From: Candidatus Bathyarchaeia archaeon
GTDB taxonomy: Archaea; Thermoproteota; Bathyarchaeia; Bathyarchaeales; Bathycorpusculaceae
Assembly: GCA_041447175.1 (NCBI GenBank)
Contig: CP166960.1
Coordinates: 2,310,519 to 2,374,518, forward strand
Direction: 5' to 3'
DNA length: 64,000 nucleotides
Shown: positions 12,559-46,264 of the stretch, in pieces
Numbering within the stretch: position 1 is the first letter of the stretch
Layout: each line of letters starts with the position of its first letter
Made by a program: the position numbers and the translations under genes
Notes under the pieces: model-generated
The model's input: only the letters and a program-made list of their open reading frames with translations
Told to the model about the DNA's origin: nothing
Database searches by the model: none

Positions 12559-13047
12559 ATGTTAAAAGATGATAACCGCAAAATGATGCTTGACAAAGTG
12601 ATAAAAAAATTTGATTATGAAGCCAGTTCCCTGCTGGAAATCCTTCATAAAGCCCAAGAATTTTACGGCTATCTTGACAAGAACCTGATGACCTACATCG
12701 CCAACGCGTTGCGTTTGCCGCCCAGCCACGTAGTCGGCGTCGCAACCTTCTACAGCTTCTTCAAACTTAAAGCCCCTGGCGAGCATGTGGTCACAGGCTG
12801 CTTAGGCACCGCCTGCTACGTGAAAGCGGTGGACGAAATCATGACAGCCATCGAACAAGAATTCCACTTAAAACGGGGCGGCTCCACGTCTGACGGCAAG
12901 CTCTCCCTGTTTACGACGCGGTGCATAGGGGCATGTGCCATGGCACCCAACATAATCGTTGATGATGAAGTCATAGGCAAAGCCACAAAAGAAGTCGTGC
13001 TTGAACGTGTACGCCTTACCTTAGCTGGCGGAGGGCGAAGAAGTTGA
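12559..13047 (+). CDS. hoxE: Hydrogenase diaphorase subunit HoxE/NuoE type
   Basis: A 162-residue [2Fe-2S] subunit, homologous to complex I NuoE and to HydC/HndA. A helical N-terminal domain (LLEILHKAQEFYGYL, ATFYSFFKL) is followed by a thioredoxin-like domain whose four cluster ligands are in GCLGTAC and RCIGAC. It passes electrons between the FMN subunit (HoxF, next gene) and the rest of the enzyme. The next start overlaps this stop (TTGA), so the genes are translationally coupled. Confidence 0.92.
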   Translation: MLKDDNRKMMLDKVIKKFDYEASSLLEILHKAQEFYGYLDKNLMTYIANALRLPPSHVVGVATFYSFFKLKAPGEHVVTGCLGTACYVKAVDEIMTAIEQEFHLKRGGSTSDGKLSLFTTRCIGACAMAPNIIVDDEVIGKATKEVVLERVRLTLAGGGRRS

Positions 13048-30826: not shown

Positions 30827-31585
30827 TTACCTGAACATGTCTTTTTCTTTGGGGCGAGTCAAATTTTGCACAGAAACATCCTCAGCGGCCTGATACCTGT
30901 ATCCTCTGATTATAGCCACGGGGATTCCCTCGTTTGCTTGTCCCATGACCAACTCTGCTGCCGAGGCAAGCTCGTCCGCTATGCATGTTTGCTTCACATT
31001 AAGAACGTAGCCAAAGAGGTCTTTTTCGCCTCTGCGGTCACGGATGGGCTTAATCCCTGCTACGCCTATAGCAACGTTGATTTCCCCCATACGCAAAGGG
31101 CGCCCATGGGTATCTGAAATAATCACTGCAACACTGCAGCCCGTAATCCTCTTTATTTCATGCCTTATGTTTCGCGCTGACGCATCAGGGTCAACAGGAA
31201 GCAAAGCCACGCTTCGGTCGCCATTCACGTTAGACCGGTCTAATCCCGCGTTCGCTGAGATAATGCCGCTTTTTGTCTCCGTTATCAGGCTGTTGGGGCC
31301 CATGCGCACAATTTCTTTGGTTTCCCGAAGAATAACCTCCACCATAGCTGGCTCCTTGCCGACTTTTGCTGCAATCTCCACGGCGCGTTCTGAGGGCACA
31401 ACCTCATCAAGGTTAACGATGCTTCCTTCGGCTTTAGAAACCGCAACATGCGTCACGACCACCACATCGCCTTCTTGGATTGGAGTGCCCTGTTTTTCTG
31501 CAGCTTCAACGATAAACTGTCCTATGTTGTCACCTTTTTGAAACAGCGGCAATTTTTCGACGGCAACAATTCTTACAGTATCCAC
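30827..31585 (-). CDS. cofE: Coenzyme F420-0:L-glutamate ligase
   Basis: A 252-residue GTP-dependent ligase that adds the glutamate tail to F420-0. Seen: GDVVVVTHVAVSKAEG near the N-terminus, GIISANAGLDRSNV, LLPVDPDASARNI and IISDTHGRPLRMGEINVAIGVAGIKPIRDRRG, which carry the metal and GTP contacts. It is a good marker that this organism makes F420. That bears on the FrhB-like proteins at 32681 and 37834. Confidence 0.93.
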   Translation of the reverse strand: MDTVRIVAVEKLPLFQKGDNIGQFIVEAAEKQGTPIQEGDVVVVTHVAVSKAEGSIVNLDEVVPSERAVEIAAKVGKEPAMVEVILRETKEIVRMGPNSLITETKSGIISANAGLDRSNVNGDRSVALLPVDPDASARNIRHEIKRITGCSVAVIISDTHGRPLRMGEINVAIGVAGIKPIRDRRGEKDLFGYVLNVKQTCIADELASAAELVMGQANEGIPVAIIRGYRYQAAEDVSVQNLTRPKEKDMFR

Positions 31586-31783: not shown

Positions 31784-32509
31784 TTAGGTTCGGAATTTCT
31801 GCAGCTTCTGCAGCATTTCTTTGTCGCCTTCAGCGTCACCAGCGCATGTGGCGATAATACCGTCGACTAAACCTTCCAGCCTTGCTGCTTTCTCTTCAAC
31901 TGTGTCCATGGTTGCGGCAACTGGCCAGCCAATCATCTTGACTGTTTCCACGTTCTTTGGTGTGCCCACAAGGAAGTATGCGTAGATGGGTTTGTTCATT
32001 TTCTTGCATTCTTTGGCGACCTGTTCTAGGACTGGGAAGGATTGGTCTTCAAGCCTCATGAAGTAGATAAAGTCCCAGTCGCCCTTGGCGCGTTCGATGG
32101 TTTCTTCGACGGAGCGGCGTGCGGTCAGCAAGCAGCCAAGCTTTAGGTTCTTCAGCTTCACGTTTGCTTTCAGGAAGTCTCTTGCCGCTTCAGAGGAAGG
32201 CAGCATCTTTATGGGTTCGCCAAAGTGGGGTTTGTCGCCCATGGTGACTGCTAAGCCGTCAAGACCGATGATGTCAGAGGCTAAAGCTAAACCGCCAACT
32301 TCCACTGGACCCTTATAGTGTAGAATAAAGATGGGGCAGACATACTTGTCTGGGTACTTGTTTTTGAGGATGCAGCTTACAACGACGCCGCTGGGAGCTG
32401 GAAAACCGGCAGCGCTGTCGGTTACGTTCCATCCGTCAACTAAGTCTTTGATTTCATCTGCGAGCTTGAGGAATTTACGTGTTGGTACAAACTCGTTTAG
32501 TATTTTCAT
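31784..32509 (-). CDS. Methylenetetrahydrofolate reductase (MetF)-like protein
   Basis: A short TIM-barrel protein of 241 residues from ATG 32509. Similarity to MetF: the EFVPTR start (family EFFPPR), the strand NVTDSAAG, then LDGLAVTMGDKPHFGEP, where the Asp corresponds to the family's flavin-contacting GD(x)P motif. It would reduce methylene- to methyl-tetrahydropterin, the last step of the methyl branch. The upstream neighbour on the same strand is an FrhB-like F420 protein, a possible electron partner. The frame continues to 32575, but the extra 22 residues lack support. Confidence 0.72.
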   Translation of the reverse strand: MKILNEFVPTRKFLKLADEIKDLVDGWNVTDSAAGFPAPSGVVVSCILKNKYPDKYVCPIFILHYKGPVEVGGLALASDIIGLDGLAVTMGDKPHFGEPIKMLPSSEAARDFLKANVKLKNLKLGCLLTARRSVEETIERAKGDWDFIYFMRLEDQSFPVLEQVAKECKKMNKPIYAYFLVGTPKNVETVKMIGWPVAATMDTVEEKAARLEGLVDGIIATCAGDAEGDKEMLQKLQKFRT

Positions 32510-32680
32510 AGAGGCATCATCTTGGCTAAACGTAGATGGGTTTGGCTTAAAAAGGCTTTTGTAGCCGATAAACAAGGCGTTCTAGCGCTGCCGACAACAA
32601 ATCTGCTTAAAATGTGGTTAACTGGGTAAGACAAGCTTTTTTCGGCTCTGATTTTTCCTTTTGTTTTCGTGATTGTTTGT

Positions 32681-33541
32681 CTAAACGTCGGTTTTCTGTG
32701 GTTGGGTTGGCGTCTTGTTGATACGGCTCAAGTTTTTGTTGGAATGCGCTTTTTTTAGCTTGCATAATTTTGTGATTTCCTCTTTATTTGCCTCTGCTCT
32801 GCATATGCCCAAGTTTTCTATCAGCTTTTTACCTGCGTCTGTTCGAACAATAACCGTTGAGTACCCGCTTGGGCTGCCCACTGAACCCGCCGAGACATCT
32901 GCGTGCCACGCCGGAAAATCGTCGCAGAACCTGCATCCCCCCGCAACTGCCCCCTCAAGGTCTCCCACCCTGCAGCTGTACTCTCGCTGGTCGAGGTAAG
33001 CGGTGAATTTGCCTTGCCGTATCTGGGTCTTTTGGGCTTCATCGATGTTCATGCCCAGAAGCTTCTGCGTCTGCGTTTTAAGTTTGGCGTAGTTGAATGC
33101 TTCAAAACAAAACAACCCAACTATTGTGATTTCTGCGTCGGGCACTTGCTGCTTTAGGTTTTTTTGGATTGCTCTGGCGGCTTTAGCTTGACAAGGCGTG
33201 CCAACCACCGCGATTCTCTTTCTCCCCTTAGCAACAAGCTCCCTCAGCTTAGGCGCAGTCAGTACCCTGAGGTATTTGGTTCCCTTTGCCGCCTCCACTT
33301 CCGCCACGTTCTCGGCAGCTACCGCCTCCGCTCGGTAGCCTTCTTTGCGTGCAACAACCACCGCCACATCAAACAAGCCCCTCTGCAAGCCCTCCACCAG
33401 CAGCGCAGAAACCACCCCGCCATCTTGACCTTCAATGCTGCTTTTGGCTGAAAACAGTTCATTGTAACTGCCCAAGTTTCCGTCTTCTATCTGCGTACCA
33501 GTTTGGGTTTTGTCTGCCCCTTTTTCCGCGGTGTTTGCCAT
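32681..33541 (-). CDS. FrhB/FdhB-family F420-linked flavo-Fe-S protein
   Basis: A 286-residue member of the coenzyme F420 hydrogenase/dehydrogenase beta-subunit family. Four cysteines fit the [4Fe-4S] site: VGTPCQAKA, GLFCFEAF and the pair in CRFCDDFPAWHADVSAGSVG. The start QDGGVVSALLVEGL is also typical. It uses FAD to pass electrons between F420 and Fe-S clusters. It lies upstream of the metF-like gene on the same strand and is a clear paralogue of the C-terminal half of the protein at 37834-39258. The last 35 residues are basic and low in complexity. Confidence 0.82.
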   Translation of the reverse strand: MANTAEKGADKTQTGTQIEDGNLGSYNELFSAKSSIEGQDGGVVSALLVEGLQRGLFDVAVVVARKEGYRAEAVAAENVAEVEAAKGTKYLRVLTAPKLRELVAKGRKRIAVVGTPCQAKAARAIQKNLKQQVPDAEITIVGLFCFEAFNYAKLKTQTQKLLGMNIDEAQKTQIRQGKFTAYLDQREYSCRVGDLEGAVAGGCRFCDDFPAWHADVSAGSVGSPSGYSTVIVRTDAGKKLIENLGICRAEANKEEITKLCKLKKAHSNKNLSRINKTPTQPQKTDV

Positions 33542-33772: not shown

Positions 33773-34552
33773 ATGAAGGTTGCAGTTTCTGGAAAAGGTG
33801 GCGTAGGCAAAACCCTCATTGCAGGTGGCTTAGCCAAAGGGTTTGCTGACCGCGGCTTTAAATCAATGGCTATAGATGCTGACTCCTCCCCAAACCTTGC
33901 TTTGACGTTGGGGTTGACGGCGGAGCAAGCTCGAAAAATTTTGCCTTTGACCGAGAACAAGGAGCTTGTGGACTCCAAAACAAGCACTGGTTACTCGGGC
34001 GTCTACAACCTGAACTTTAAGGTAGATGATATAATTCGGGATTATGCCATGAAGACCCCGCTTGGCGTTGAACTCATTGTTATGGGCACCGTGAAAGCAA
34101 TGGGTTCTGGCTGCATGTGCGCCCCCAATGCCATCGTGCGGGCAATGCTGCGGCATCTGATGGTGGAACGCAACGAAGCCGTCGTTTTAGACCTCGAAGC
34201 GGGCGTGGAACACATTGGCAGAGGAACAGCAAAAGCCGTAGACGTGTTGCTTATTGTGGCAGATTCTAATTTGAAGTCGCTGGAAATTGCCAAACACATT
34301 CACGACATGACTGCAGCAGCTGAAATGAAGCATGTTTACTTGGTTGGCAACCGCGTGATGAATCCAGCTCAGGAAGAAGCCATCAAAAGTTTCGCAAAGG
34401 AAAACCGTTTGGAGATTCTGGCGTTGGTGCCGTTTGACCAAAAAGTCATCGAAGCCGACATGCTTGGACAAACCCCGCTGAAAAATAAGGAAATGGCGGC
34501 AGTGCAGACCATAGACAATATATGCGACACGCTGCTTAAGAAAACCAATTAG
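33773..34552 (+). CDS. cooC: CooC-type nickel-insertion ATPase 1
   Basis: A 259-residue MinD/CooC ATPase for maturation of CODH. The deviant Walker A is SGKGGVGKTLIAGG with the signature Lys, the Walker B region is AVVLDLEAGVEHIGRG, and a C-x-C motif (GSGCMCAPN) matches the metal-binding pair of CooC dimers. The ATG follows GGTGAAATT. It begins a block leading into the CODH/ACS operon and lies 7 bases before a second CooC-like gene. Confidence 0.92.
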   Translation: MKVAVSGKGGVGKTLIAGGLAKGFADRGFKSMAIDADSSPNLALTLGLTAEQARKILPLTENKELVDSKTSTGYSGVYNLNFKVDDIIRDYAMKTPLGVELIVMGTVKAMGSGCMCAPNAIVRAMLRHLMVERNEAVVLDLEAGVEHIGRGTAKAVDVLLIVADSNLKSLEIAKHIHDMTAAAEMKHVYLVGNRVMNPAQEEAIKSFAKENRLEILALVPFDQKVIEADMLGQTPLKNKEMAAVQTIDNICDTLLKKTN

Positions 34553-34559
34553 TTTTGGG

Positions 34560-35339
34560 GTGAATTGTTTGAAAACCATTGTTACCATAGGGCGCGGCGG
34601 AACAGGCAAATCCAGCTTCACCGCCATGATGACAAAAGCGTTTGTGGAAGCAGGCAACACGCCGTTGCTGCTAGTGGACGCCGACCCCGACCAGAACCTC
34701 GCCGAAATGCTCGGCGTTGACCTTAAAGAGGCTGGCAAATCCACGTTGGCTGACCTTATTGTGGACACGTTCATCCAGAAGGGTGGAACCACGGTGGGGG
34801 TTTCGCCGACAGACCGCATTGAAAGCAGCATTTGGGCAAGGGGGCTTTACGAAAGCGACACTTTCGACTTTATATCTGTAGGCACCAAGTGGGTTGAAGG
34901 CTGCTATTGCATGCCTAACTCTGCGTTGAAAGCGGCGTTGGAGCATTTAACCAAGACCTACGAGTACGTGATTATTGATTCGCCTGCGGGGCTGGAGCAC
35001 TTGAACCGACGTATAGCCTCCAAAGTCACCGACATCTTTGAAATGTTGGATCACTCCAAGAAGAGTGTGGACCACGCGAAACGTGCTTTCCGTATTGCTA
35101 AAGAAGTGAACATGCAGTTTGACAACTTTTACTTGGTGGGTGGCTACCGTTTTCCCGCTGAACGCGGCAAAATAGCGGAGCAGGAGTTAAACTTTAAGTA
35201 CTTAGGCAAAATCCTTGCCGATGAGCAGGTAGATGATTACGTTCTTACTGGAAAGTCGCTTTTAGAGTTACCTTCTGACAACGCTGCGTTCGCTTCTGTA
35301 AAGGCAATTATGAAGGAAACAGGTTACATACAGCAATAA
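34560..35339 (+). CDS. CooC-type ATPase 2, variant P-loop
   Basis: A 259-residue paralogue of the preceding CooC. The C-x-C pair is kept (EGCYCMPN), as is Walker B (YVIIDSPAGLEHLNRR). However, the P-loop reads TIGRGGTGKSS: the signature Lys of the deviant Walker A (KGGxGK) is Arg. This may alter dimer-dependent ATP hydrolysis. It starts with GTG 7 bases after cooC1 and is about 130 bases before cdhA. It may serve the second nickel site (A-cluster), which is inference. Confidence 0.88.
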   Translation: MNCLKTIVTIGRGGTGKSSFTAMMTKAFVEAGNTPLLLVDADPDQNLAEMLGVDLKEAGKSTLADLIVDTFIQKGGTTVGVSPTDRIESSIWARGLYESDTFDFISVGTKWVEGCYCMPNSALKAALEHLTKTYEYVIIDSPAGLEHLNRRIASKVTDIFEMLDHSKKSVDHAKRAFRIAKEVNMQFDNFYLVGGYRFPAERGKIAEQELNFKYLGKILADEQVDDYVLTGKSLLELPSDNAAFASVKAIMKETGYIQQ

Positions 35340-35447: not shown

Positions 35448-35476
35448 TATATTCAAAACCTTTACTGAGGTTTGAA
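35448..35476 (+). promoter_or_regulatory. CODH/ACS operon promoter with inverted repeat
   Basis: A TATA-like tatatt at 35448-35453 runs into an inverted repeat, TTCAAAACCT (35452-35461) and AGGTTTGAA (35468-35476), pairing 9 bases with one extra A and a 6-base spacer. It fills the space between the TATA box and the start of cdhA, so a bound factor would block transcription. The expected start of transcription is close to the TTG start codon at 35478. Confidence 0.5.
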
Positions 35477-35477
35477 C

Positions 35478-37826
35478 TTGACCACCAAAAACGTGCGCAT
35501 GAAAATTGGCGAATTAAAGACCAATAATGGTCTAATTAAAAACCTCGACTTATCCATAGGGAAAATTGTTGATGATTCATGGGCTGAACCCATGGGGCCT
35601 ACACCTTTTCCATCCATTGCATCCCTGAGAGACTGGGACCTGAAGCTTCTCAACAGATACAAGCCCTTTTATATGCCTGCTTGTGACCTCTGTTGCCTTT
35701 GCACTTATGGAAAATGTGACCTAACCGCAGGCAAACGCGGCGCTTGCGGCCTTGACATGGCGGCTCAGTCATCACGTATTGTGCTTCTGTCTTGCTGTAT
35801 TGGCGCAGCAACCCACACTGCACACGCCCGACACGTAGTTCACCATTTAATCGAAACATACGGGCGCAGATACCCGCTTGACGTCGGCGGCTTAAACATC
35901 AAAGTAGAAGCCCCAATCACAAGACTTGTCTGCGGCATTAAACCCGAAACCATCGGCGACTTGGAAGAAGCCCTAGACTACGCAGAAGAACAAGTCACCC
36001 AATGTCTAGCATCCGTCCACACAGGACAAGAAGGCAACAACCTTGACTTCGAATCCAAAGCCTTCCACGTCGGCATGATTGACCACCTCGGCATGGAAAT
36101 CGCCGATATCGCCCAAATTTCCGTTTACGATTTTCCTAAAGCCAACCCTGAAGCACCCCTAATTCAGATGGGCATCGGAACAGTTGACCAAACTAAACCC
36201 GTAATCATGTGCATCGGACACAACGTCGTTCCATCCGTAGGCATCATCGACTACATGCAAGACACTGGCGTAGCCGAAAACATCGAAGTCGTCGGCTTAT
36301 GCTGCACCGCAATCGACAACACACGATACTACGACCGAGGCAAAATCGTCGGGCCTATCTCATGGCAACTCCGCTTCATACGTAGCGGCTTTGCCGACGT
36401 CGTCGTCTTAGACGAACAATGTGTCCGAACCGACGCTTACCTCGAAGCACAAGCCGTCAAAGCCCCAGTAATTGCGGCTTCCGAAAAGAACTGCTTGGGC
36501 TTTAAGAATCGAACAAACGACCCAGCAGACGAAATCGTCGCTGACCTCGTAAACGCCAAAGTCCCTGGTGTCCTAATTCTTGACCCTGAAAAAGTCGGCG
36601 AAGTCGCAGTGAAAACTGCACAAAAAGTTGCACCCCTACGAAAGAAGTTCAAGATTCTACCCTCCAACGAAGAAATCGTCCAGTTATCTTCCACTTGCCG
36701 CCAATGCAGCCTCTGCCAACGCTCCTGCCCTCAAAACCTCAAAATCCCTGAAGCTCTCAAAGCGGCATCTGAAGGCGACCTCTCCCTGCTAACTGAAATC
36801 TACGAAGCATGCATCGGATGCGGAAGATGCGAAGAAGTCTGCCCCGTTAAACTCCCAATTCACAGCTTCATCGTGAAATCTGCTGAACGCGAAATGTTTG
36901 AAGAGAAAAACTATTGCCGCTCTGGCCGAGGCGCAGTTCAAGACGTTGAAATCCGAAGTGTCGGTGGACCCCTCGTTTTGGGTGAAATCCCAGGCATTCT
37001 TGCCGTAGTCGGATGCGCTAACTATCCACGCGGCGGCAAAGACGTCTATGACATCTGCAGAGAATTCGCAAGCAGACGCTTCATCGTTGTCACCACTGGT
37101 TGCTCCGCTATGTCCGCTGGCTCCTACAAGAACGAAGACGGCCTGACCCTCTACGAAGAGTTCCCAGGCGACTTCGCAGCAGGCGGCGTAGTCAACATCG
37201 GCTCATGCGTTGCAAACTCCCACATATCTGGTGCAGCCATCAAAGTTGCAAACATCTTCGCTAAACGACCCCTACGCGGCAACTACGAAGAAATCGCAGA
37301 TTACATCTACAACCGTGTAGGCGCAGTTGGTTTGGCCTGGGGCGCCTTCTCACAGAAAGCCTCCTCCATCGCAGCTGGCTTTTGGCGGTTAGGTGTTCCA
37401 GTGCTTGTTGGTCCACACGGAAACAAATACCGACGTATGCTCCTAGGCAGAAGCGATAAACCCGAAGATTGGTACACAATTGACGCCCGTACCGGCGAAC
37501 AAGTCTACACTGGACCCGCGCCCGAACATCTGTTTCAATCGGTCGAAACCAAAGAAGAAGCCATGGTTGCTATCGCAAAATTGACGCTTAGACCAAACGA
37601 CACTTGGAAGGGACGCTCAGGAAAACTATCCCACTACATAGACCTGCACAAACGCCACTACGGCTCAATGCCCCAAGACCTACACCTGTACATTCGCACG
37701 TTGGCTGATGTTCCAATCACCATGAAAGACGAAATCCTCAAGGTATTGAAGGAGAAAGACTGGAAAGAAAATCAAATCCCCGACCCCACAATTCTTCCAA
37801 GAATGGTCAGAACAATGAAACAGTAG
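35478..37826 (+). CDS. cdhA: CODH/ACS alpha subunit, Ni-Fe-S CO dehydrogenase
   Basis: The CO dehydrogenase catalytic subunit (about 782 residues), interconverting CO2 and CO at the C-cluster. Seen: N-terminal B/D-cluster cysteines (CDLCCLCTYGKCDLTAGKRGACG region), the His motif GHNVVPSVG, GLCCTAIDNTR, two ferredoxin-type motifs of the archaeal form (CRQCSLCQRSCP; CIGCGRCEEVCPV), then VGCANYPRGG, TTGCSAM and GSCVANSH for C-cluster ligands. Start options are TTG 35472, TTG 35478 or ATG 35499; GAGG at 35467-35470 favours 35478. It heads the seven-gene operon that runs to cdhE. Confidence 0.95.
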   Translation: MTTKNVRMKIGELKTNNGLIKNLDLSIGKIVDDSWAEPMGPTPFPSIASLRDWDLKLLNRYKPFYMPACDLCCLCTYGKCDLTAGKRGACGLDMAAQSSRIVLLSCCIGAATHTAHARHVVHHLIETYGRRYPLDVGGLNIKVEAPITRLVCGIKPETIGDLEEALDYAEEQVTQCLASVHTGQEGNNLDFESKAFHVGMIDHLGMEIADIAQISVYDFPKANPEAPLIQMGIGTVDQTKPVIMCIGHNVVPSVGIIDYMQDTGVAENIEVVGLCCTAIDNTRYYDRGKIVGPISWQLRFIRSGFADVVVLDEQCVRTDAYLEAQAVKAPVIAASEKNCLGFKNRTNDPADEIVADLVNAKVPGVLILDPEKVGEVAVKTAQKVAPLRKKFKILPSNEEIVQLSSTCRQCSLCQRSCPQNLKIPEALKAASEGDLSLLTEIYEACIGCGRCEEVCPVKLPIHSFIVKSAEREMFEEKNYCRSGRGAVQDVEIRSVGGPLVLGEIPGILAVVGCANYPRGGKDVYDICREFASRRFIVVTTGCSAMSAGSYKNEDGLTLYEEFPGDFAAGGVVNIGSCVANSHISGAAIKVANIFAKRPLRGNYEEIADYIYNRVGAVGLAWGAFSQKASSIAAGFWRLGVPVLVGPHGNKYRRMLLGRSDKPEDWYTIDARTGEQVYTGPAPEHLFQSVETKEEAMVAIAKLTLRPNDTWKGRSGKLSHYIDLHKRHYGSMPQDLHLYIRTLADVPITMKDEILKVLKEKDWKENQIPDPTILPRMVRTMKQ

Positions 37827-37833
37827 GTGGAAC

Positions 37834-39258
37834 ATGATGTTGAAACAAACAACCCAAGAAGTAACCCTAACAATTGATGGGCAAGAAGTAAAAGCCCCCG
37901 AAGGCGCAACACTCCTTAACGTCGCAAGACAAATCGGCATTGACATCCCAACCCTATGCTACCACGCCGAAGTTTCTCCCTTCGGCGCCTGCCGTCTCTG
38001 CTCCGTGGAAGTAACCAAAAACGGTCGAACCAAAGTCGTAACCTCCTGTAACTACCCTATCGAAGAAGGCATAGTTGTCCAGACAAACTCCGAAAAAATC
38101 CAGAAAGTTCGCAAAGGCATCTTAGCACTTTTGATGGCGCGGTGCCCCAAGTCCGTCAAACTGAAAAACTTAGGCAAAGCCTACGGCTTAGAGGAACACG
38201 GGCTGTGGGAATCAGACCCTGAGGAAGACTGTATCCTCTGCGGTTTATGTGTGCGTGTTTGTAAAGAATTAGTTGGTGTTTCTGCCATAAACTTTGCTCA
38301 ACGCGGTGTTGAACGCGAAGTAACCGCTCCCTACCACAAATTCTCTGACGACTGCATCGGATGCGGTGCATGTGCCCTGGTTTGCCCCACTGGCTCAAAG
38401 AAAATCCGAACCTACACCTACGCAACCATGGCTCCCCTGAAAGGAACCCGCGACGACATCTTTGGCGTCCACACCGAAATGTTCTCAGCCAAAGCTGCTG
38501 ACGCAGAAGGTAACTTGGTGAAAGCACTGCTGACTGCCGGCTTTAGAAGTGGCTTATTTGACACTGCAGTTTTTGCACAACGCAAAGAAGGCAGCGAATA
38601 TGCCGCCGAAGCAGTTATTGTTGAAAACGCTGGCGACGCTGCGAAGGCAAAAGAGGCTCCTCTGCTGAGAGTTAAAACAATGTCTACCTTGCTGGACGCA
38701 GTTGAAATGGGTAAACGCAAGATTGCCTTTGTCGGCTTACCCTGCCAAGTGCGTGCAGTGCGCAAAATGCAAACAAGCATGCAGCAGGAGATGCCTGATT
38801 TGGACATAACCTCCATAGGCTTATTCTGTAGACAATCTTTTGACCCTAAGAAACTCAAAGAAGAAGTCAAGAAACTCTTCAATGTTGACTTGGGTCAAGC
38901 TGAGAGCGTTCAGATAAGCGGAGACAAATTCGTGATGAAAGCGAATGGTCAAGAATACTCCTGTGACCTAACTCAACTTGACAACGCTATAGAAGTAGGC
39001 TGCACCTACTGCAACGACTTCCCCGCGATGTTTGCTGACTTGGCGGTTGGCGCTGCAGGAAGCCGCGCAGAATGCCCCACAGTGATTGTGCGAACTGAGA
39101 AAGGCAAAGCATTACTGGACACCACAAACCTAACCAAAGGCGACGTTAAGAAAGACGAAATTGCGGCGTTGTCGGAATCCAAGAAGAACCGTGCAAAAGA
39201 GCACACAGCACCTATCCTTAAGGAGATACTTGCACAACGTGCAAAGAAGGTGGAGTAA
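37834..39258 (+). CDS. HydA/HoxU-type Fe-S domain fused to FrhB domain
   Basis: A 474-residue fusion. Residues 1-100 are a plant-type [2Fe-2S] domain (TLCYHAEVSPFGACRLC, TSCNYP); about 125-200 hold two [4Fe-4S] motifs (CILCGLCVRVCK; CIGCGACALVCP). The His-Cys3 motif of HoxU/HydA is missing. Residues about 210-474 are an FrhB domain with GLPCQVRAV, GLFCRQSF and CTYCNDFPAMFADLAVG. It should connect F420/FAD chemistry to the NuoEF-like proteins that follow. It starts 7 bases after cdhA behind AGGTGG, and its stop abuts the next start. Confidence 0.88.
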   Translation: MMLKQTTQEVTLTIDGQEVKAPEGATLLNVARQIGIDIPTLCYHAEVSPFGACRLCSVEVTKNGRTKVVTSCNYPIEEGIVVQTNSEKIQKVRKGILALLMARCPKSVKLKNLGKAYGLEEHGLWESDPEEDCILCGLCVRVCKELVGVSAINFAQRGVEREVTAPYHKFSDDCIGCGACALVCPTGSKKIRTYTYATMAPLKGTRDDIFGVHTEMFSAKAADAEGNLVKALLTAGFRSGLFDTAVFAQRKEGSEYAAEAVIVENAGDAAKAKEAPLLRVKTMSTLLDAVEMGKRKIAFVGLPCQVRAVRKMQTSMQQEMPDLDITSIGLFCRQSFDPKKLKEEVKKLFNVDLGQAESVQISGDKFVMKANGQEYSCDLTQLDNAIEVGCTYCNDFPAMFADLAVGAAGSRAECPTVIVRTEKGKALLDTTNLTKGDVKKDEIAALSESKKNRAKEHTAPILKEILAQRAKKVE

Positions 39259-39729
39259 ATGGCAACAAACGTAACAAACGAGCAATTAGACAAAATAATA
39301 GACAAATACGAGGGTAAAGAAGGCGTCCTAATTCAGCTCCTCTTGGACATCCAACGCGCCGTAAACTGGATACCCAAAGAAGCCATCACCCGAATAAACG
39401 AGCGTCTGGGCATACCTGTAAGCGAAATCTACCGCGTTGCAAGCTTCTACACCGCCATCAGCCTCAAACCCCGCGGCAAACACCTAGTGCGCGTCTGCGC
39501 TGGAACTGCCTGCTACGTTCGCGGCGGACAAAGAATCTTGGACGCTGCCGAACAAGCCATCGGAATAAAAGCAGGTGAAACTTCAAGCGACCTGAAATTC
39601 ACGCTTGAAACAGTGAACTGCTTAGGCTGCTGTGCATTGGGACCAGTTGTAGAAATCAACGGAAAATACTACGGAACCACCACCCCCAAACAGATTAAAA
39701 AAATTATTGAAAACAAACGGAGTGCCTAA
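39259..39729 (+). CDS. NuoE/HydC-type [2Fe-2S] subunit in CODH/ACS operon
   Basis: A 156-residue thioredoxin-like [2Fe-2S] protein. The helical front part (LLDIQRAVNWIPKEAI, ASFYTAISL) precedes the ligand motifs VCAGTAC and NCLGCC. It is a paralogue of the hydrogenase subunit at 12559. It starts on the base after the preceding stop, with GGTGGAG overlapping that end, and ends two bases before the NuoF-CdhB fusion gene. Its expected role is one-electron storage next to the FMN subunit. Confidence 0.92.
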   Translation: MATNVTNEQLDKIIDKYEGKEGVLIQLLLDIQRAVNWIPKEAITRINERLGIPVSEIYRVASFYTAISLKPRGKHLVRVCAGTACYVRGGQRILDAAEQAIGIKAGETSSDLKFTLETVNCLGCCALGPVVEINGKYYGTTTPKQIKKIIENKRSA

Positions 39730-39731
39730 CC

Positions 39732-42179
39732 ATGACACACCTTAACTCTCCAGCTGAACTGGAACAACTTCAAAAACAAATTCTTGCAAGCAAAGACCCC
39801 AATCAGGTAATCGTTTCGATTTGCACAAGCACCGGCTGTGAAGCTTTAGGCGCACAAGACGTCCTTGAAACCCTAAAGGCTGAACTCAAAAAACACGGCT
39901 TGGAAGGCAAAGTTAAGATTCGCGAAACTGGCTGTTTGGGCTTCTGTGAGCAAGGTCCAAGACTTGTCATTTACCCACAAGGCGTCTACTACTTCAAAGT
40001 GCAAGCTTCTGATGTGCCTGACATAGTCGAAAAAACCCTCCTCAAAAATGAAGTCGTAAAACGCATCCTCTACAAAGACAACGTCACCGAAAGAATCACT
40101 GAGAAACTCTCTGATGTGCCCTTCTACAAGTACCAAAACCGGCTGCTGCTGGAAAACAACGCCAAAGTTGACCCTAAGAAAATTGACGACTACATCGCCT
40201 TAGGCGGCTACTCTGCATTAGCTAAATCCATCTCCAAGATGACTCCCGAAGGCGTGCTTGAAGAAATCAAGAAATCCAAGCTTCGAGGTCGCGGAGGCGG
40301 CGGTTTCCCCACTGGACGCAAATGGGAATCAACCCGCAAAGCCGAAGGTGAACCCAAATACGTCATTGTAAACTGTGACGAGGGCGACCCAGGCGCTTTC
40401 ATGAACCGCGCGTTGATGGAAGGCAACCCCCACAGCATCCTTGAAGGATTAATCATCGCTGCATACGCGGTTGGCGCAAGCGAAGGCTTCCTTTACGTCC
40501 GTCAAGAGTACCCTCTGGCAGTAGAAAACATGCAGCTGGCCATCGAAGAAGCAGAGAAACACGGCTTGCTCGGCAGCAACATTCTGGGCTCCACCTTTAA
40601 CTTCAAAGTATCCATCCACAGAGGCGCAGGCGCCTTCGTTTCAGGCGAATCCACTGCACTCATGAACGCCATTGAAGGCAAAGTGGGTGAACCAAGACCA
40701 AAATACGTGCACACCTCCGACAAGGGTCTCTACGACAAACCAAGCGTCCTCAACAACGTAGAAACCTACGCTAACGTTCCCATGATCATAAACAACGGCG
40801 CGGAATGGTTCCAGAAAATCGGCACCGAAGGTAGCAAAGGCACCAAGATATTTGCCCTTGCAGGCAAAGTCAACAACACAGGCTTGGTTGAAGTTCCCTT
40901 CGGCGTGACCCTGCGAGACATCATCTTCAAGATCGGCGGCGGTATCCGCAACAACAAGAAATTCAAAGCTGTCCAGACTGGTGGTCCTTCCGGCGGAGTT
41001 ATCCCCAAACAGTACTTGGATTACCCAGTTGACTTTGATGAGCTCTCTAAGCTTGGCTCCATGATGGGTTCAGGCGGCATGATTGTGCTGGACTCAGACA
41101 CCTGCATGGTTGACGTAGCTCGATACTTCATCAACTTCCTCTGCGACGAATCTTGTGGTCAATGTGTCCCCTGCCGTGAAGGTCTAAAGCAAGCCCGTAA
41201 AATCCTTGATGACATCGTAACTGGCAACGGTAAACCCGGCGACTTTGAGAAACTGCAGCAGATTGCTGAAACCATGAGTGTTGCATCGCTTTGTGCGTTG
41301 GGTCAAACTGCAGCAAACCCCATGCTAACAACGCTTCGCCACTTCAAAAAAGAATACCTTGCCCACCTCGAAGAGAAACGTTGCCCCGCCTTGGTCTGCA
41401 AGCCGCTGCTTACCTTCTACATTGACCCCGAGAAATGCACTGGCTGCCAATACTGCGCTATGAGCTGCCCTGAACACGCAATTGAAGGTGCAATGGATAA
41501 AATCCACGTGATTAACCAAGACAAATGCACCAAATGTGGAACCTGCTTTGACATGTGTCCACCTGAATACTCTTCAGTAAAGAAGCTCTCTGGAGAACCC
41601 GCGCCTTCACCGATTCCTGAAGACCACCGTTGGATTAAACGACCTTGGGCTCTTGCTGAGGTTTCAGGAACCAAGAAAGCTCACATAATCTCCAACGCCA
41701 AAGTTGCAGCTGAACTTGTCTCGAAGGCTACCCACCCGCTTCTCATCGTGGGCTCTAACGCCGTTGAGAACGAGTACGAAGGCAAGAACCTGATTGATTA
41801 CATGATAGAGTTTGCAAAGAAAGTCAACATGCCCGTTGTCGCTACAGCACAGACCGTCAATGAATTCCTAAAGCGAGGCTACACTCCTGCTGGCGCAATG
41901 TCTGCTACTGAAATCGGCTGCCGACTAGTTGACCCTGAATGGAACGGCATCGACTCTAAAGGTCCACATGACATGGCAATCTTCGTTGGCGTACCAATGG
42001 TGACTGCTGTTGAAGTCTTATCTGGGCTGAAGAACTTCGCTCCCAAGCTTAAGACTTTAAACTTGGACAACATGTATAATCAGCATGCAAGCTGGTCTTT
42101 GCCTAGCTCAACGGTGAAAGATTGGGTTGCTACCCTCACAGTCATGACTTCAAAATTAGAAGAAGATGGAGGAAACTGA
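39732..42179 (+). CDS. NuoF/HydB - ferredoxin - CdhB (CODH epsilon) fusion protein
   Basis: An 815-residue fusion. Residues 20-110: thioredoxin-like [2Fe-2S] domain (SICTSTGCEALG, ETGCLGFCEQGP). About 125-545: FMN/NADH module with LRGRGGGGFPTGRKW, SLBB region, [4Fe-4S] motif DESCGQCVPCR and ASLCALGQ. About 550-560: H-x4-C-x3-C as in HydB. About 565-615: two-cluster ferredoxin (CTGCQYCAMSCPE; CTKCGTCFDMCPP). About 634-815: CODH epsilon domain (VAAELVSKATHPLLIVGS, MPVVATAQT, VDPEWNGIDSKGPHDMAIFVG, SGLKNFAPKLKTLNLDN, ASWSLPSS). No separate cdhB is seen in the window. Confidence 0.92.
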   Translation: MTHLNSPAELEQLQKQILASKDPNQVIVSICTSTGCEALGAQDVLETLKAELKKHGLEGKVKIRETGCLGFCEQGPRLVIYPQGVYYFKVQASDVPDIVEKTLLKNEVVKRILYKDNVTERITEKLSDVPFYKYQNRLLLENNAKVDPKKIDDYIALGGYSALAKSISKMTPEGVLEEIKKSKLRGRGGGGFPTGRKWESTRKAEGEPKYVIVNCDEGDPGAFMNRALMEGNPHSILEGLIIAAYAVGASEGFLYVRQEYPLAVENMQLAIEEAEKHGLLGSNILGSTFNFKVSIHRGAGAFVSGESTALMNAIEGKVGEPRPKYVHTSDKGLYDKPSVLNNVETYANVPMIINNGAEWFQKIGTEGSKGTKIFALAGKVNNTGLVEVPFGVTLRDIIFKIGGGIRNNKKFKAVQTGGPSGGVIPKQYLDYPVDFDELSKLGSMMGSGGMIVLDSDTCMVDVARYFINFLCDESCGQCVPCREGLKQARKILDDIVTGNGKPGDFEKLQQIAETMSVASLCALGQTAANPMLTTLRHFKKEYLAHLEEKRCPALVCKPLLTFYIDPEKCTGCQYCAMSCPEHAIEGAMDKIHVINQDKCTKCGTCFDMCPPEYSSVKKLSGEPAPSPIPEDHRWIKRPWALAEVSGTKKAHIISNAKVAAELVSKATHPLLIVGSNAVENEYEGKNLIDYMIEFAKKVNMPVVATAQTVNEFLKRGYTPAGAMSATEIGCRLVDPEWNGIDSKGPHDMAIFVGVPMVTAVEVLSGLKNFAPKLKTLNLDNMYNQHASWSLPSSTVKDWVATLTVMTSKLEEDGGN

Positions 42180-42183
42180 GAAA

Positions 42184-43584
42184 ATGTCAATGTTTGAAGA
42201 TATACCCGTAGAAGTTGGCGTAATCTACGAAGGAGAACGCATACGCAAAAACGACATGCAAGTCGAACTCGGCGGACCCAAAGTCAAAGAAAAATTTGAA
42301 CTCGCAAAAGTCAGGCCCATGGACCAAATCGAAGACGGAAAAATCACCATCATCGGACCCGACCTAAAAGACATAGCAGAAGGCAGCGCCGTCCCCTTCG
42401 GCATTCTTGTCGAAGCCGCAGGCGCAACCCTTGATGCAGGTCTTGAAGGTGTAATCGAGCGACGCATCCACGGCTACCTCAACTACATCGAAGGCTTCAT
42501 GCACCTAAACCAGCGCTACGACATCTGGATGAGACTTGGCAAGAAATCCTTCCAAAAAGGCATGAACAGCTTCGAATACGCCGGTAAAGTTCTTTACCGC
42601 CTATTTAAAAGCGAGCTGTCTATCATCGAAAAACTACAGATAACCTTCGTTACGGACCCCAACAAAATCAGTGAAATGTACCCTGCAGCCGTTGCAGACT
42701 ATGAAGCCCGCGACGCAAAAGCTCGGGGGCTTAAAGATGAGGAAGTTGACAAATTCTATGGCTGTGTTCTGTGCCAATCTTTCGCACCCAGCCACGTTTG
42801 TGTCATTACTCCTCAACGCTACAGCAACTGCGGTGCCATCAGCTGGTTTGACGGCAAAGCCTCAGCAAGCATCGACCCCAAGGGTCCAGTGTTTGCAATC
42901 GAACGCGGCGAACTTTTGAACGCTGAGAAAGGCGAATTTAGCGGTGTCAACGAAACCGTCAAGAAACGCACCATGGGCGATGTTAACCAAGTTTGGCTCT
43001 ACACTGCCTTTGACCACCCACACACTTCCTGCGGATGCTTTGAAGCAGTCGCTTTCTACATCCCCGAAGTTGACGGGTTAGGCGTGGTTCATCGTAGCTT
43101 CAAAGGCGCAACCGTAAACGGCTTGCCTTTCAGCACCATCGCAGACTCTGCAGCAGGCGGACGACAAGTAGACGGCTTCCACGGCATGTCCATCGAATAC
43201 ATGCGTAGCAAGAAATTCTTCGCTGCTGACGGCGGATGGAACCGCATCGTTTGGCTGCCTAAAGAAATCAAGGAACGCGTAAAAGACTTCATCCCTGCAG
43301 ACGTGATTGACAAAATCGCCACTGAAGAAAACGCAACCAACATCGACGACTTGAAGGCTTTCCTGAAAGAAAAGAACCATCCAGTGGTTGCACAGTGGGA
43401 AAAAGAAGAAACCGCAGTTGAAGAAGCACCCGCAGAAGAAGCAGTTGAAGGACAAATGATGCCAGTGATGACTGCATCCTCGCTACCTATAACGGCTGGC
43501 GGCTTTAAGATAATCCTTAAGGATGCAAAGATATACGCCAACAAAGTCATAATTAAAACGGTTAAGGACGAAAAAACCAAATAA
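42184..43584 (+). CDS. cdhC: CODH/ACS beta subunit, acetyl-CoA synthase
   Basis: The acetyl-CoA synthase subunit (466 residues), joining CO, a methyl group and CoA at the Ni-Ni-[4Fe-4S] A-cluster. A-cluster cysteines are in GCVLCQSFAPSHVCVITPQR, YSNCGAISW and HTSCGCFEA. It lacks the N-terminal domain of bacterial ACS, as archaeal forms do, and has an acidic linker (EETAVEEAPAEEAVE) before a small C-terminal segment. Start 42184 is chosen because GGAGG at 42169-42173 precedes it; ATG 42166 overlaps the previous gene. Confidence 0.95.
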   Translation: MSMFEDIPVEVGVIYEGERIRKNDMQVELGGPKVKEKFELAKVRPMDQIEDGKITIIGPDLKDIAEGSAVPFGILVEAAGATLDAGLEGVIERRIHGYLNYIEGFMHLNQRYDIWMRLGKKSFQKGMNSFEYAGKVLYRLFKSELSIIEKLQITFVTDPNKISEMYPAAVADYEARDAKARGLKDEEVDKFYGCVLCQSFAPSHVCVITPQRYSNCGAISWFDGKASASIDPKGPVFAIERGELLNAEKGEFSGVNETVKKRTMGDVNQVWLYTAFDHPHTSCGCFEAVAFYIPEVDGLGVVHRSFKGATVNGLPFSTIADSAAGGRQVDGFHGMSIEYMRSKKFFAADGGWNRIVWLPKEIKERVKDFIPADVIDKIATEENATNIDDLKAFLKEKNHPVVAQWEKEETAVEEAPAEEAVEGQMMPVMTASSLPITAGGFKIILKDAKIYANKVIIKTVKDEKTK

Positions 43585-43587
43585 GCG

Positions 43588-44832
43588 GTGACAAATTTGC
43601 CTCACCACGAAAGAAAAGACTACAAAAAAGAAGACAGTGGCTCAGGTTTGGGGCTAAGCCCCGAACTTCTTGACCTTCTGGCCAAGTTCCAAGAAATCGA
43701 ACTTGAAGACTTCCAGATGGACGCCAGCGAGATAGAGTTGTCCTTCACGCCAGGTATGTTGGCTGGGCAAGCAATGCCTACGCTAAAGTTGCCTCCAGCT
43801 TTGAAGGCTAAACCTGTTTCGATGCTGCAGGCCGCATTTGTGCCTCCAGTCGAGACTTACCCCGGCAAAATTGCTGAGGTGAAATTGGGCGGCACTAAAG
43901 GCGAAGGTGGCACACGCGGCAAATCCATAACCATCGGTGGAGAAATCTCTCCAGCTTTCTACACCTTTGAGAAGCCCGTGGTTCACTCCCCCATCGTGAC
44001 TTTGGACGTTTTTGACATGGCTGTTCCCCTGTCAAAAGCCGTAAAAATGCACGTGAAGGATGTTGTGGGTGACCCTGCGGCGTGGGCGAAACTTGCAGTG
44101 GACAAGTTCGGTGCAGACATGGTTACCGTACACCTCATTAGCATTGACCCCTTGCTCAAAGACGCCACTCCTAAAGATGCTGTGAAGACGGTTGAGAACA
44201 TTTTGCAGGCTGTCGATGTTCCGCTGGTTATCGGCGGATGCGGTGACCCCGTGAAAGACGCAAATGTCTTTGCAGAAATAACTGAGACCTTCAAAGGTGA
44301 ACGTTTCCTCATAAGCTCGCTGACACGCGACATGGACGTTGAACGATGCGCTAAATTCGTCAAGAACAATGGGCACGCCGCATTATCCTTCACTCCAATG
44401 GATCTTAACTTGGCACGTGAACTTAACCGCAGACTCTACGACTTCTTGGGCAAAGAAGACATAGTTATGGACTTAACCACGGCGGCTTTGGGCTACGGTT
44501 TGGATTATGCTTTCACAAACATGGAACGCGCTAGGCTCGCAGGTTTGATGGGCGACGTTGAATTGGCTCACCCGATGTCTTCAGGAACCACCAACGCTTG
44601 GGCAGCCAGAGAAGCTTGGCTCAAGATGGCTCCTGAATGGGAACCCCGCGAACTTCGAGGTCCCCTCTGGGAAGTCACCACCGCTCTGACGCTTCTGCTA
44701 GCAGGTGTGGACCTGTTCATGATGATGCATCCAGCCGCAGTAAAAACCCTCAAAGACGTAACTAAAAACTTGGTAAACGGCGGAAAAGTCGACGCAAGCA
44801 AATTTGCCGACTGGCTTTCCGTCAAGGCATAA
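43588..44832 (+). CDS. cdhD: CODH/ACS delta subunit (corrinoid protein small subunit)
   Basis: A 414-residue TIM-barrel protein, partner of CdhE in the corrinoid Fe-S protein that carries the methyl group to acetyl-CoA synthase. Seen: KLGGTKGEGGTRGKSITIGGE, VVHSPIVTLDVFD, VPLVIGGCGDPVKD, HAALSFTPMDLNLARELNR and YGLDYAFTNMERARLAGL. It starts with GTG three bases after the cdhC stop and runs close to cdhE. Length is typical. Confidence 0.94.
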   Translation: MTNLPHHERKDYKKEDSGSGLGLSPELLDLLAKFQEIELEDFQMDASEIELSFTPGMLAGQAMPTLKLPPALKAKPVSMLQAAFVPPVETYPGKIAEVKLGGTKGEGGTRGKSITIGGEISPAFYTFEKPVVHSPIVTLDVFDMAVPLSKAVKMHVKDVVGDPAAWAKLAVDKFGADMVTVHLISIDPLLKDATPKDAVKTVENILQAVDVPLVIGGCGDPVKDANVFAEITETFKGERFLISSLTRDMDVERCAKFVKNNGHAALSFTPMDLNLARELNRRLYDFLGKEDIVMDLTTAALGYGLDYAFTNMERARLAGLMGDVELAHPMSSGTTNAWAAREAWLKMAPEWEPRELRGPLWEVTTALTLLLAGVDLFMMMHPAAVKTLKDVTKNLVNGGKVDASKFADWLSVKA

Positions 44833-44845
44833 GGAGATGCAAACG

Positions 44846-46264
44846 ATGAGCAAAAAAGCTTCAATAAAAGAACTCAGCCCAATAGACGTATACAAACTCC
44901 TGCCAAAAACCAACTGCAAAGAATGCGGCCAAGAAAACTGCATGGCTTTCGCCACAAAAATGGTCAACCGCGAAGTAACCTTAGACGCCTGCAAACCCCT
45001 GCTAAAGAAAGAAAACGAGAAATCCTACCTCAAACTCAAAGACCTGCTTAAACCCGCAGTTAAAGAAGTCATTGTTGGCGTTGGCGAGAAAGCCAAGAAA
45101 CTCGGCGGCAAACTCGTCATGTACCGACACGAATTCACCTACACAAACCCCACCGCCCTTGCCATCGACGTAACTGACGAAATGCCTGAAGCCGAAGTCA
45201 TCAAACGCGTCCAAAGCACCGAGAACTTCAGTTTCGAATACATCGGCAACACTCTAAAACTTGACATGATTGCCATCCGATGCACCTCTGGCGACGCAGA
45301 AAAATTCAAAGCCACCGTCAAGAAAGTCTCCGAAACCACCGCCCTGCCCTACATCATCTGTACTCTTAGCGCTAACATCGCCGAAGCAGGCTTAATGGCT
45401 GCTCCCAAAGCTAACCCGCTTCTGTACGCAGCAAACAGCGAAAACTGGAAAGACATGGCTGAACTCGCGATGATGTACCATTGCCCGCTGGTTGTCTCCG
45501 CACCAAACGACCTGAACATGCTTGTCTCTTTGGTGAATACCCTCACTAACTACGGCGTAACTGACTTGGTCTTAGACCCCGGAACCTTTGCAAATGAAGG
45601 CTTAGCCACCACTATTAACAACTTTACAATGCTGCGCAGAGCCGCGTGTAAAGCAGGTGAAGCCCTCGCTGGGTACCCCATGATTGGAGTTCCAATGGTT
45701 GCTTGGGTTGGCAAAGACGGCGCCGCAGACGAAATCATCAAGTGGAAAGAAGCATACTTGGCTTCCATGTTGGTGGTTCGCTACGCCGATGTAGTCGTAA
45801 TGCATGGCAACGACGGCTGGTCTCTGCTGCCTACTACAGTGCTGCGTCAAAACATCTACACCGACCCACGCAAACCCGTCGCAGTCGCACCGGGCCTTAA
45901 GGTGTTCGGCACCCCCGACGAGAACTCGCCAGTGATGTTCACCAGCAACTTTGCCCTGACCTACTACACTGTTGCCTCAGACATTGAAAGCAGCAAGCTC
46001 AACGCTTACCTTATCGTCGTGGAAAGCGAAGGCTCAGCCATTGACAGCGGAGTCGCAGGACGCAAACTCACCGCCGACCGCGTAGCCGAAGCCCTCAAAG
46101 AATCAGGCGTCGAAAACAAAGTCAAACACAAGAAACTCATCATCCCTGGCAAAGCATCCAGAATCAGCGGCGAAATCGAAGAGCTCACAGGCTGGAAAGT
46201 GCAGGTCGGACCACGCGACAGCAGCGAAATCCCCAAGTACCTCACAGAAAAATGGCAACCCTAA
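44846..46264 (+). CDS. cdhE: CODH/ACS gamma subunit (corrinoid protein large subunit)
   Basis: A 472-residue corrinoid/[4Fe-4S] subunit. The N-terminal cluster motif is TNCKECGQENC with a fourth Cys about 16 residues later. A TIM barrel (LVVSAPNDLNML, DLVLDPGTFANEG) and a C-terminal cobamide-binding part (GVAGRKLTADRVAEALKES, KLIIPGKASRISGEIEELTGWKV) follow. The start at 44846 is supported by AGGAGAT at 44830-44836; the longer frame would overlap cdhD by 29 bases. It is the last gene of the operon. Confidence 0.95.
   Translation: MSKKASIKELSPIDVYKLLPKTNCKECGQENCMAFATKMVNREVTLDACKPLLKKENEKSYLKLKDLLKPAVKEVIVGVGEKAKKLGGKLVMYRHEFTYTNPTALAIDVTDEMPEAEVIKRVQSTENFSFEYIGNTLKLDMIAIRCTSGDAEKFKATVKKVSETTALPYIICTLSANIAEAGLMAAPKANPLLYAANSENWKDMAELAMMYHCPLVVSAPNDLNMLVSLVNTLTNYGVTDLVLDPGTFANEGLATTINNFTMLRRAACKAGEALAGYPMIGVPMVAWVGKDGAADEIIKWKEAYLASMLVVRYADVVVMHGNDGWSLLPTTVLRQNIYTDPRKPVAVAPGLKVFGTPDENSPVMFTSNFALTYYTVASDIESSKLNAYLIVVESEGSAIDSGVAGRKLTADRVAEALKESGVENKVKHKKLIIPGKASRISGEIEELTGWKVQVGPRDSSEIPKYLTEKWQP

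Follow-up and report, generated by a model that had tools for sequence, protein, structure and literature searches.

A Bathyarchaeial CODH/ACS operon encodes a bifurcating-type NuoF fused to CdhB and a partner subunit with an eroded FrhB-like F420 site

The usual assumption is that archaeal CODH/ACS passes electrons to and from free ferredoxin. In 2024 one exception was demonstrated: ethane oxidisers use F420 (PMC11493965). In a 64,000-nucleotide stretch of DNA (the window) from the 2.73-Mb, single-contig genome of a Candidatus Bathyarchaeia archaeon, a member of a widespread class of sediment archaea, the sequences suggest another such route, in which a bifurcating core wires CODH/ACS directly to NAD+ and ferredoxin. 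In the reading that we lean towards, the CO-oxidising part, CdhA and CdhB, would form one physical assembly with an NAD+/ferredoxin bifurcating core of the Bfu type, with an FrhB-like domain acting as an iron-sulfur relay or a docking scaffold. The protein carrying this domain, encoded at 37834-39258, was originally predicted to link the diaphorase core to F420 in place of H2. That prediction overlooked the position of the gene inside a CODH/ACS operon, the fusion of its partner NuoF to CdhB, and the F420-Bfu enzymes already put forward in 2022 (PMC9304861).

The operon has the order cdhA, 37834 gene, nuoE, nuoF::cdhB, cdhC, cdhD, and cdhE, with intergenic gaps of 7, 0, 2, -14, 3, and -29 bp, respectively. 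The 37834 gene comes second, separated from cdhA by 7 bp and directly abutting nuoE. The genes of the operon, and the two that precede it, are as follows:

33773-34552 (+): CooC-like P-loop NTPase 1, probably a nickel-insertion factor for CODH (PF01656/NifH-like); kept upstream of CdhA in relatives
34560-35339 (+): CooC-like P-loop NTPase 2 (AAA_31/CbiA); conserved in relatives
35472-37826 (+): CdhA, CODH alpha subunit with the C-cluster (TIGR00314, 1157 bits, cut-off 781)
37834-39258 (+): BfuA-like subunit with [2Fe-2S], 2x[4Fe-4S], and an FrhB-fold domain with an eroded FAD/F420 site (profile matches, alignments)
39259-39729 (+): NuoE/HydC-like subunit (BfuC), [2Fe-2S] (PF01257, 177 bits)
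39732-42179 (+): NuoF/HydB-like subunit (BfuB) fused to CdhB, CODH epsilon, at about residues 636-802 (PF01512, PF10589, PF01257, Fer4, PF02552; TIGR00315, 103 bits, over cut-off)
42166-43584 (+): CdhC, acetyl-CoA synthase beta subunit (TIGR00316, 640 bits)
43588-44832 (+): CdhD, corrinoid Fe-S protein delta subunit (TIGR00381, 444 bits)
44804-46264 (+): CdhE, corrinoid Fe-S protein gamma subunit (NF003195, 593 bits)

All five CODH/ACS subunits (alpha, beta, gamma, delta, and epsilon) pass curated NCBIfam cut-offs, with epsilon present as a fusion domain, and a search of the host genome found no CdhB match other than the one fused to NuoF. The closest relative of CdhA with a solved structure is 8riu_A, the alpha subunit of the F420-reducing CODH of Ethanoperedens. 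Searches for RNA families and tRNAs found none in the window.

The NuoF::CdhB protein consists of an N-terminal [2Fe-2S] domain, an FMN/NAD domain, and a C-terminal pair of [4Fe-4S] clusters, followed by CdhB. PF01512 (156 bits), PF10589 (108 bits), and Fer4 match the NuoF part, while SLBB scores 23.2 bits, under its cut-off of 27, in a region covered by TIGR01959 (472 bits). In alignments, the ligands of the unusual cluster B2 (Cys, His, Cys, Cys) and those of clusters B3 and B4, which non-bifurcating homologs lack, are present as DTC, H-x5-C-x4-C, and two CxxCxxCxxxCP motifs. The best PDB relatives of the NuoF core are bifurcating HydB/BfuB subunits, and the domain set of BfuB in the Bfu family (51K FMN/NAD, SLBB, NADH_4Fe-4S, and 4Fe-4S dicluster) is found here together with those of BfuC (thioredoxin-like [2Fe-2S], PF01257) and BfuA (2Fe-2S and 4Fe-4S, PF13510 and Fer4). 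Judged by these motifs, none of the cofactors typical of the electron-bifurcating Bfu/HydB family is missing from this NuoF, and we infer that it bifurcates electrons. The other NuoF in the window (13044-14702), from a HoxEFUYH-type hydrogenase operon, keeps the H-x5-C-x4-C of B2 and lacks the C-terminal 2x[4Fe-4S]. The B2 histidine was rejected as a sole marker of bifurcating NuoF because this Hox-type copy has the same residue; from the motifs, it is the C-terminal cluster pair that separates the bifurcating from the non-bifurcating type here. In the embedded forms CdhB follows on just where the stand-alone NuoF ends, and NuoF::CdhB is most simply explained by an in-frame fusion.

The 37834 gene is an open reading frame with no internal stops, and its product of 474 residues is a fusion of a [2Fe-2S] domain, two [4Fe-4S] motifs, and an FrhB-like domain. 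Pfam places Fer2_4 at residues 8-86, an Fer4 dicluster at about 130-188, and FrhB_FdhB_C at 295-431 (107.6 bits). The N-terminal motifs that had been proposed are borne out by these matches and by the cysteines themselves, C42/C53/C56/C72 for [2Fe-2S] and C133/136/139/143 and C174/177/180/184 for the two [4Fe-4S] clusters. The proposed absence of a His-Cys3 motif also holds, as a profile search with PF10588 gave no match to this protein and 49.9 bits for the hydrogenase copy at 14699. All four FrhB cluster cysteines (C304, C332, C390, and C393) are present, as predicted, and are invariant in every aligned relative, and the view that FrhB occupies the place of the HydA H-cluster domain describes the domain swap correctly. 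Among PDB entries, the N-terminal half is closest to 9mqx_A, BfuA from a bifurcating tungsten aldehyde oxidoreductase. The protein as a whole matches the fold of 8riu_B best (E 2.8e-21, 349 columns), which is zeta in the F420-reducing CODH of Ethanoperedens; FrhB and Fsr come next. In an AlphaFold2 model from a 16-sequence alignment, the FrhB domain has pLDDT values mostly of 80-94 and the ferredoxin-domain clusters are poorly modelled (pLDDT <50).

The full-length domain fusion is present in 19 of the 257 class genomes, so it is not a chance event. Eight of these, the window, L057-L062, and L149, have the gene embedded in a CODH operon with NuoF::CdhB; operon order and fusion are conserved across these eight genomes from two families, and the fusion is in frame in all eight. 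The other 11 (L063-L070, L147, L148, and L150) have stand-alone nuoE-nuoF-fusion operons without CdhB, with the L065 contig ending inside nuoF. Most of the stand-alone operons lie away from CODH, and that of L067 is directly upstream of cooC-cdhA-cdhB. Grouping of all CODH-embedded operons as one clade has a support of 62/20. A single-sequence scan of named genomes found the same operon in Candidatus Bathyarchaeota SKW11, the only named relative recovered.

In structures of FrhB, FAD packs against loops at residues 23-30 (QDGG), 71-77 (K75-Y76), and 131-138 (with cluster Cys134), and F420 was placed near S209/V210; the F420 density was withdrawn in the later paper, which upheld the conserved access channel (eLife 00218, eLife 01963). 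We compared these sites between a canonical set of 16 Bathyarchaeial sequences, which includes a stand-alone FrhB of the window, and an eroded clade consisting of the window protein and L057-L060. The FAD/F420 motifs are intact in 16 of 16 canonical sequences, as they are in F420 enzymes of known structure, while none of the five eroded sequences retains the Gln-Asp of QDGG, the Tyr, the Glu of CxExF, or the F420-side loop Ser. In the window protein the substitutions are Q224A, D225E, Y277L, E334Q, and S404A, and L057-L060 have non-canonical letters at the same positions. The alignment also places a two-residue deletion before the QDGG site in the eroded clade, and the letters of the former FAD loop differ among its members (AEGN, AEGD, PSEG, GTDN, and SLDG). 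The two regions concerned are:

38500-38514 (+): place of the FAD loop (G)QDGG, here D223-A224-E225-G226-N227; GQDGG is present in all 16 canonical relatives and in none of the five window-clade members
38743-39012 (+): span of the four retained FrhB-type [4Fe-4S] cysteines C304, C332, C390, and C393 (alignment)

The losses are concentrated in the FrhB part of the protein. Of the 52 C-domain positions that never vary among the canonical sequences, the eroded five have all lost 10 and all kept 24; the N-part has 73 such positions, with 1 lost and 64 kept (Fisher tests, p 0.0007 for lost and p 9e-7 for kept). At two of the ten, positions 289 and 302, most structurally solved F420 enzymes carry the same letter as the eroded sequences, which means that some of the losses have no bearing on the pocket. 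PF04422, the N-terminal half of FrhB, scores 14.6 bits in the window protein, at most 19.9 bits in the eroded five with no match in L059, and 51-60 bits in five canonical sequences, against a cut-off of 22. The eroded five form a single clade with a support of 99/99 in a tree built without the FrhB columns. For pairs that include the window protein, the C-domain dN/dS is 0.13-0.16, about twice that of the N part and far below 1 (NG86, near pairs only, with YN00 mostly saturated), which indicates that the gene is not a pseudogene and that the domain is under purifying selection.

Set against F420 enzymes of known structure, the window protein has lost its pocket residues and kept only the Fe-S cysteines, an outcome named beforehand as one that would refute the original prediction. 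With the flavin- and F420-holding residues lost and the cluster kept, F420 is probably not the partner of this protein in this organism, contrary to what had been predicted for it. The prediction remains the best reading for the 11 stand-alone operons and for the embedded operons L061, L062, and L149, in which the FAD and F420 contact residues are intact. By their sequences, these 14 operons are good candidates for F420-Bfu, or Type 1 Bfu, a system predicted in Methanosaetaceae by Schut et al (2022; PMC9304861). The window copy has the FrhB fold and cluster cysteines on BfuA that characterise F420-Bfu, and neither it nor its clade has the intact contact residues. The loss of the pocket is judged by motifs, and a flavin might still be held by the domain in some other way.

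The host probably uses F420 somewhere, given that it encodes both CofD (G000:C1:2158701) and CofE. Two genes of the window are relevant here:

30827-31585 (-): CofE, F420-0:gamma-glutamyl ligase, F420 maturation (TIGR01916, 295.7 bits, cut-off 180.65)
32681-33541 (-): stand-alone FrhB-like protein with intact QDGG/KY/CxExF, a possible F420 handler (profiles, alignment)

A 263-residue protein encoded beside the CofE, FrhB, and CooC genes (31784-32575, -) is 83-89% identical in relatives, and Pfam and NCBIfam searches with it gave no matches. PF01933 was rejected as evidence for CofD on its own, as it also matches E. coli, and CofD was confirmed with TIGR01819. Of the 91 family genomes, 86 encode CofE and only one encodes CofH (FO synthase), so FO may be scavenged or made by another route; missing CofH was rejected as a disproof of F420 use, since CofE is so common in the family and some of its genomes have the F420-dependent Mtd. 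Mtd, or Mer above its curated cut-off, is found in six of eight genomes with a stand-alone operon and in none of the seven CODH-embedded genomes searched (Fisher p 0.007, relatedness ignored), a distribution that fits a role for F420 in the stand-alone enzyme and its dispensability for the embedded one.

This evidence bears on two alternatives in which the embedded enzyme would still reduce F420. The first, which follows the original prediction and which we consider unlikely, is that the FrhB domain continues to bind FAD and F420, so that the complex couples CO, NAD+, and ferredoxin to F420. The well-modelled FrhB fold, the best fold match to an F420 reductase, the retained cluster cysteines, CofD and CofE in the host, and the intact motifs of the three sister embedded operons are all consistent with it, but all five sequences have lost residues in three FAD loops and in the F420-side loop and carry the two-residue deletion, PF04422 falls below its cut-off, and Mtd and above-cut-off Mer are missing from the embedded genomes searched. 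The second, to which we give still less weight, is that F420 is reduced in trans, the eroded domain forming one half of a site that is completed by the intact stand-alone FrhB. That protein has all of the motifs and is encoded ~4 kb from the fusion gene, and the Ethanoperedens zeta subunit dimerises on CODH (PMC11493965). However, three of the five eroded genomes, G344 (88% complete), G249, and G350 (85% complete), have no close stand-alone FrhB.

In the arrangement that we favour, the join between CODH/ACS and the bifurcating core would be covalent through NuoF::CdhB and electronic through the 37834 protein. Electrons from CO could pass from the C-cluster of CdhA to its ferredoxin-like clusters, and from there to the two [4Fe-4S] clusters and the [2Fe-2S] cluster of the 37834 protein, before the FMN of NuoF divides them between NAD+ and ferredoxin; the reverse direction is also conceivable. 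The FrhB domain would descend from a working F420 reductase and, in the eroded clade, would no longer hold FAD or F420, probably surviving as an Fe-S relay or docking scaffold comparable to zeta on the CODH of Ethanoperedens. The matches of the 37834 protein to 8riu_B and of CdhA to 8riu_A point to the zeta docking site as its likely position. Schut et al note that it is not obvious why a low-potential donor such as CO should need bifurcation, which counts against this scheme, and also suggest that bifurcation may permit the use of very low CO (PMC9304861). It is improbable that NuoEF and the 37834 protein form an independent NADH:ferredoxin oxidoreductase that is merely co-transcribed with CODH/ACS. 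The same genes do form a separate operon in the 11 relatives, most of them away from CODH, yet in all eight embedded operons NuoF is fused in frame to CdhB, the window's own genome gave no other CdhB match, and the 37834 gene sits between cdhA and nuoE/nuoF::cdhB. Least probable of all is that the FrhB domain has been re-purposed for another flavin or substrate, as persisting purifying selection and FrhB-fold proteins with other electron partners (HCAR, 5dqr) might suggest, because the variable former FAD loop looks like relaxed constraint and not like a new site.

The window operon combines features of several known systems. F420-Bfu shares the BfuB/BfuC core and a BfuA with an FrhB-like F420-reducing catalytic domain, which is the architecture of the 11 stand-alone operons; the window operon differs in lying inside CODH/ACS, in the CdhB carried by its BfuB, and in its eroded FAD/F420 site. 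As FrhB on a HydA/HoxU-like subunit has been published as F420-Bfu (Schut et al, 2022; PMC9304861), the replacement of H2 by F420 is not in itself new. Codh-Bfu (Type 2, Firmicutes), which like F420-Bfu was published as a prediction (PMC9304861), also has CODH subunit genes within the Bfu cluster and a BfuA without the A3 cluster, where equating A3 with His-Cys3 is our own mapping. Unlike Codh-Bfu, the window has a CODH of the archaeal Cdh type set within a complete ACS operon, its BfuB is fused to epsilon, and its BfuA carries an FrhB-fold domain. The zeta subunit of Ca. Ethanoperedens thermophilum (8riu; PMC11493965) and FrhB7 of ANME-1 (PMC9012536) are likewise FrhB-family proteins with 2x[4Fe-4S] encoded with archaeal CODH alpha and epsilon. 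In contrast to the 37834 protein, whose pocket residues are lost and whose association with CODH is predicted from its operon and partner, zeta has intact FAD/F420 function, no [2Fe-2S] domain, and no NuoE or NuoF in its complex. ANME archaea have been described with FrhB alongside CODH (FrhB7) and alongside NuoF (FrhB8); in the FrhB8 clusters, compared here by description, FrhB adjoins NuoF-like and thioredoxin-like genes and CODH is absent (PMC9012536). The Wor-Bfu BfuA (9mqx_A) also lacks His-Cys3 but has no FrhB domain and an aldehyde oxidoreductase as its partner.

In a search of open-access literature, we found no description of a NuoF::CdhB fusion, of this combination with CODH/ACS, or of the eroded F420 site. 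We propose, tentatively, an undescribed kind of CODH/ACS in which epsilon is fused to a bifurcating flavoprotein: its ancestor would have joined CO, F420, NAD, and ferredoxin, and in the window clade the F420 arm would be switched off, with its cluster retained to serve as a wire or scaffold, which would leave an archaeal CODH linked to NAD+ and ferredoxin. For the stand-alone operons, the reaction proposed by Schut et al, NADH + reduced ferredoxin <-> F420H2, is plausible from the potentials that they list (NADH ~-280, Fd ~-500, and F420 -360 mV; PMC9304861). The source of F420H2 in Bathyarchaeia was called unclear by Loh et al (2021; PMC7886697), and these operons are a concrete candidate for it. 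With this series of gene arrangements, one can also test directly how modules were gained and fused and how a redox arm was lost.

Other loci in the class carry related modules. In a third arrangement (L074:4415-8999, L075, and L076), NuoE, a Bfu-like NuoF, and a HoxU without FrhB are encoded with a glutamate-synthase-like protein (PF01645), possibly a bifurcating-type glutamate synthase. CdhC is split over two ORFs in the L067 draft genome (L067:2530-3963), through a frameshift or an assembly error. An intact stand-alone FrhB directly follows a HoxEFUYH-type hydrogenase operon at L071:9965-10837 (G066), which suggests an F420 link to the hydrogenase. Proteins of 700-750 residues at L080:5659-7815 (-) and in L081, L082, and L083 are candidate F420-linked Rnf/Nqr-like pump subunits: in them, a membrane domain of the NqrB/RnfD type (PF03116) is fused to 2x[4Fe-4S] and to an intact FrhB domain that closely resembles the one in the 37834-type fusion. 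Finally, L072:7630-9147 (+; genome 2702629-2704146) encodes a 506-residue protein with ferredoxin, FrhB N and C domains, and two CBS domains, and homologs of ~500 residues occur in many Bathyarchaeia.
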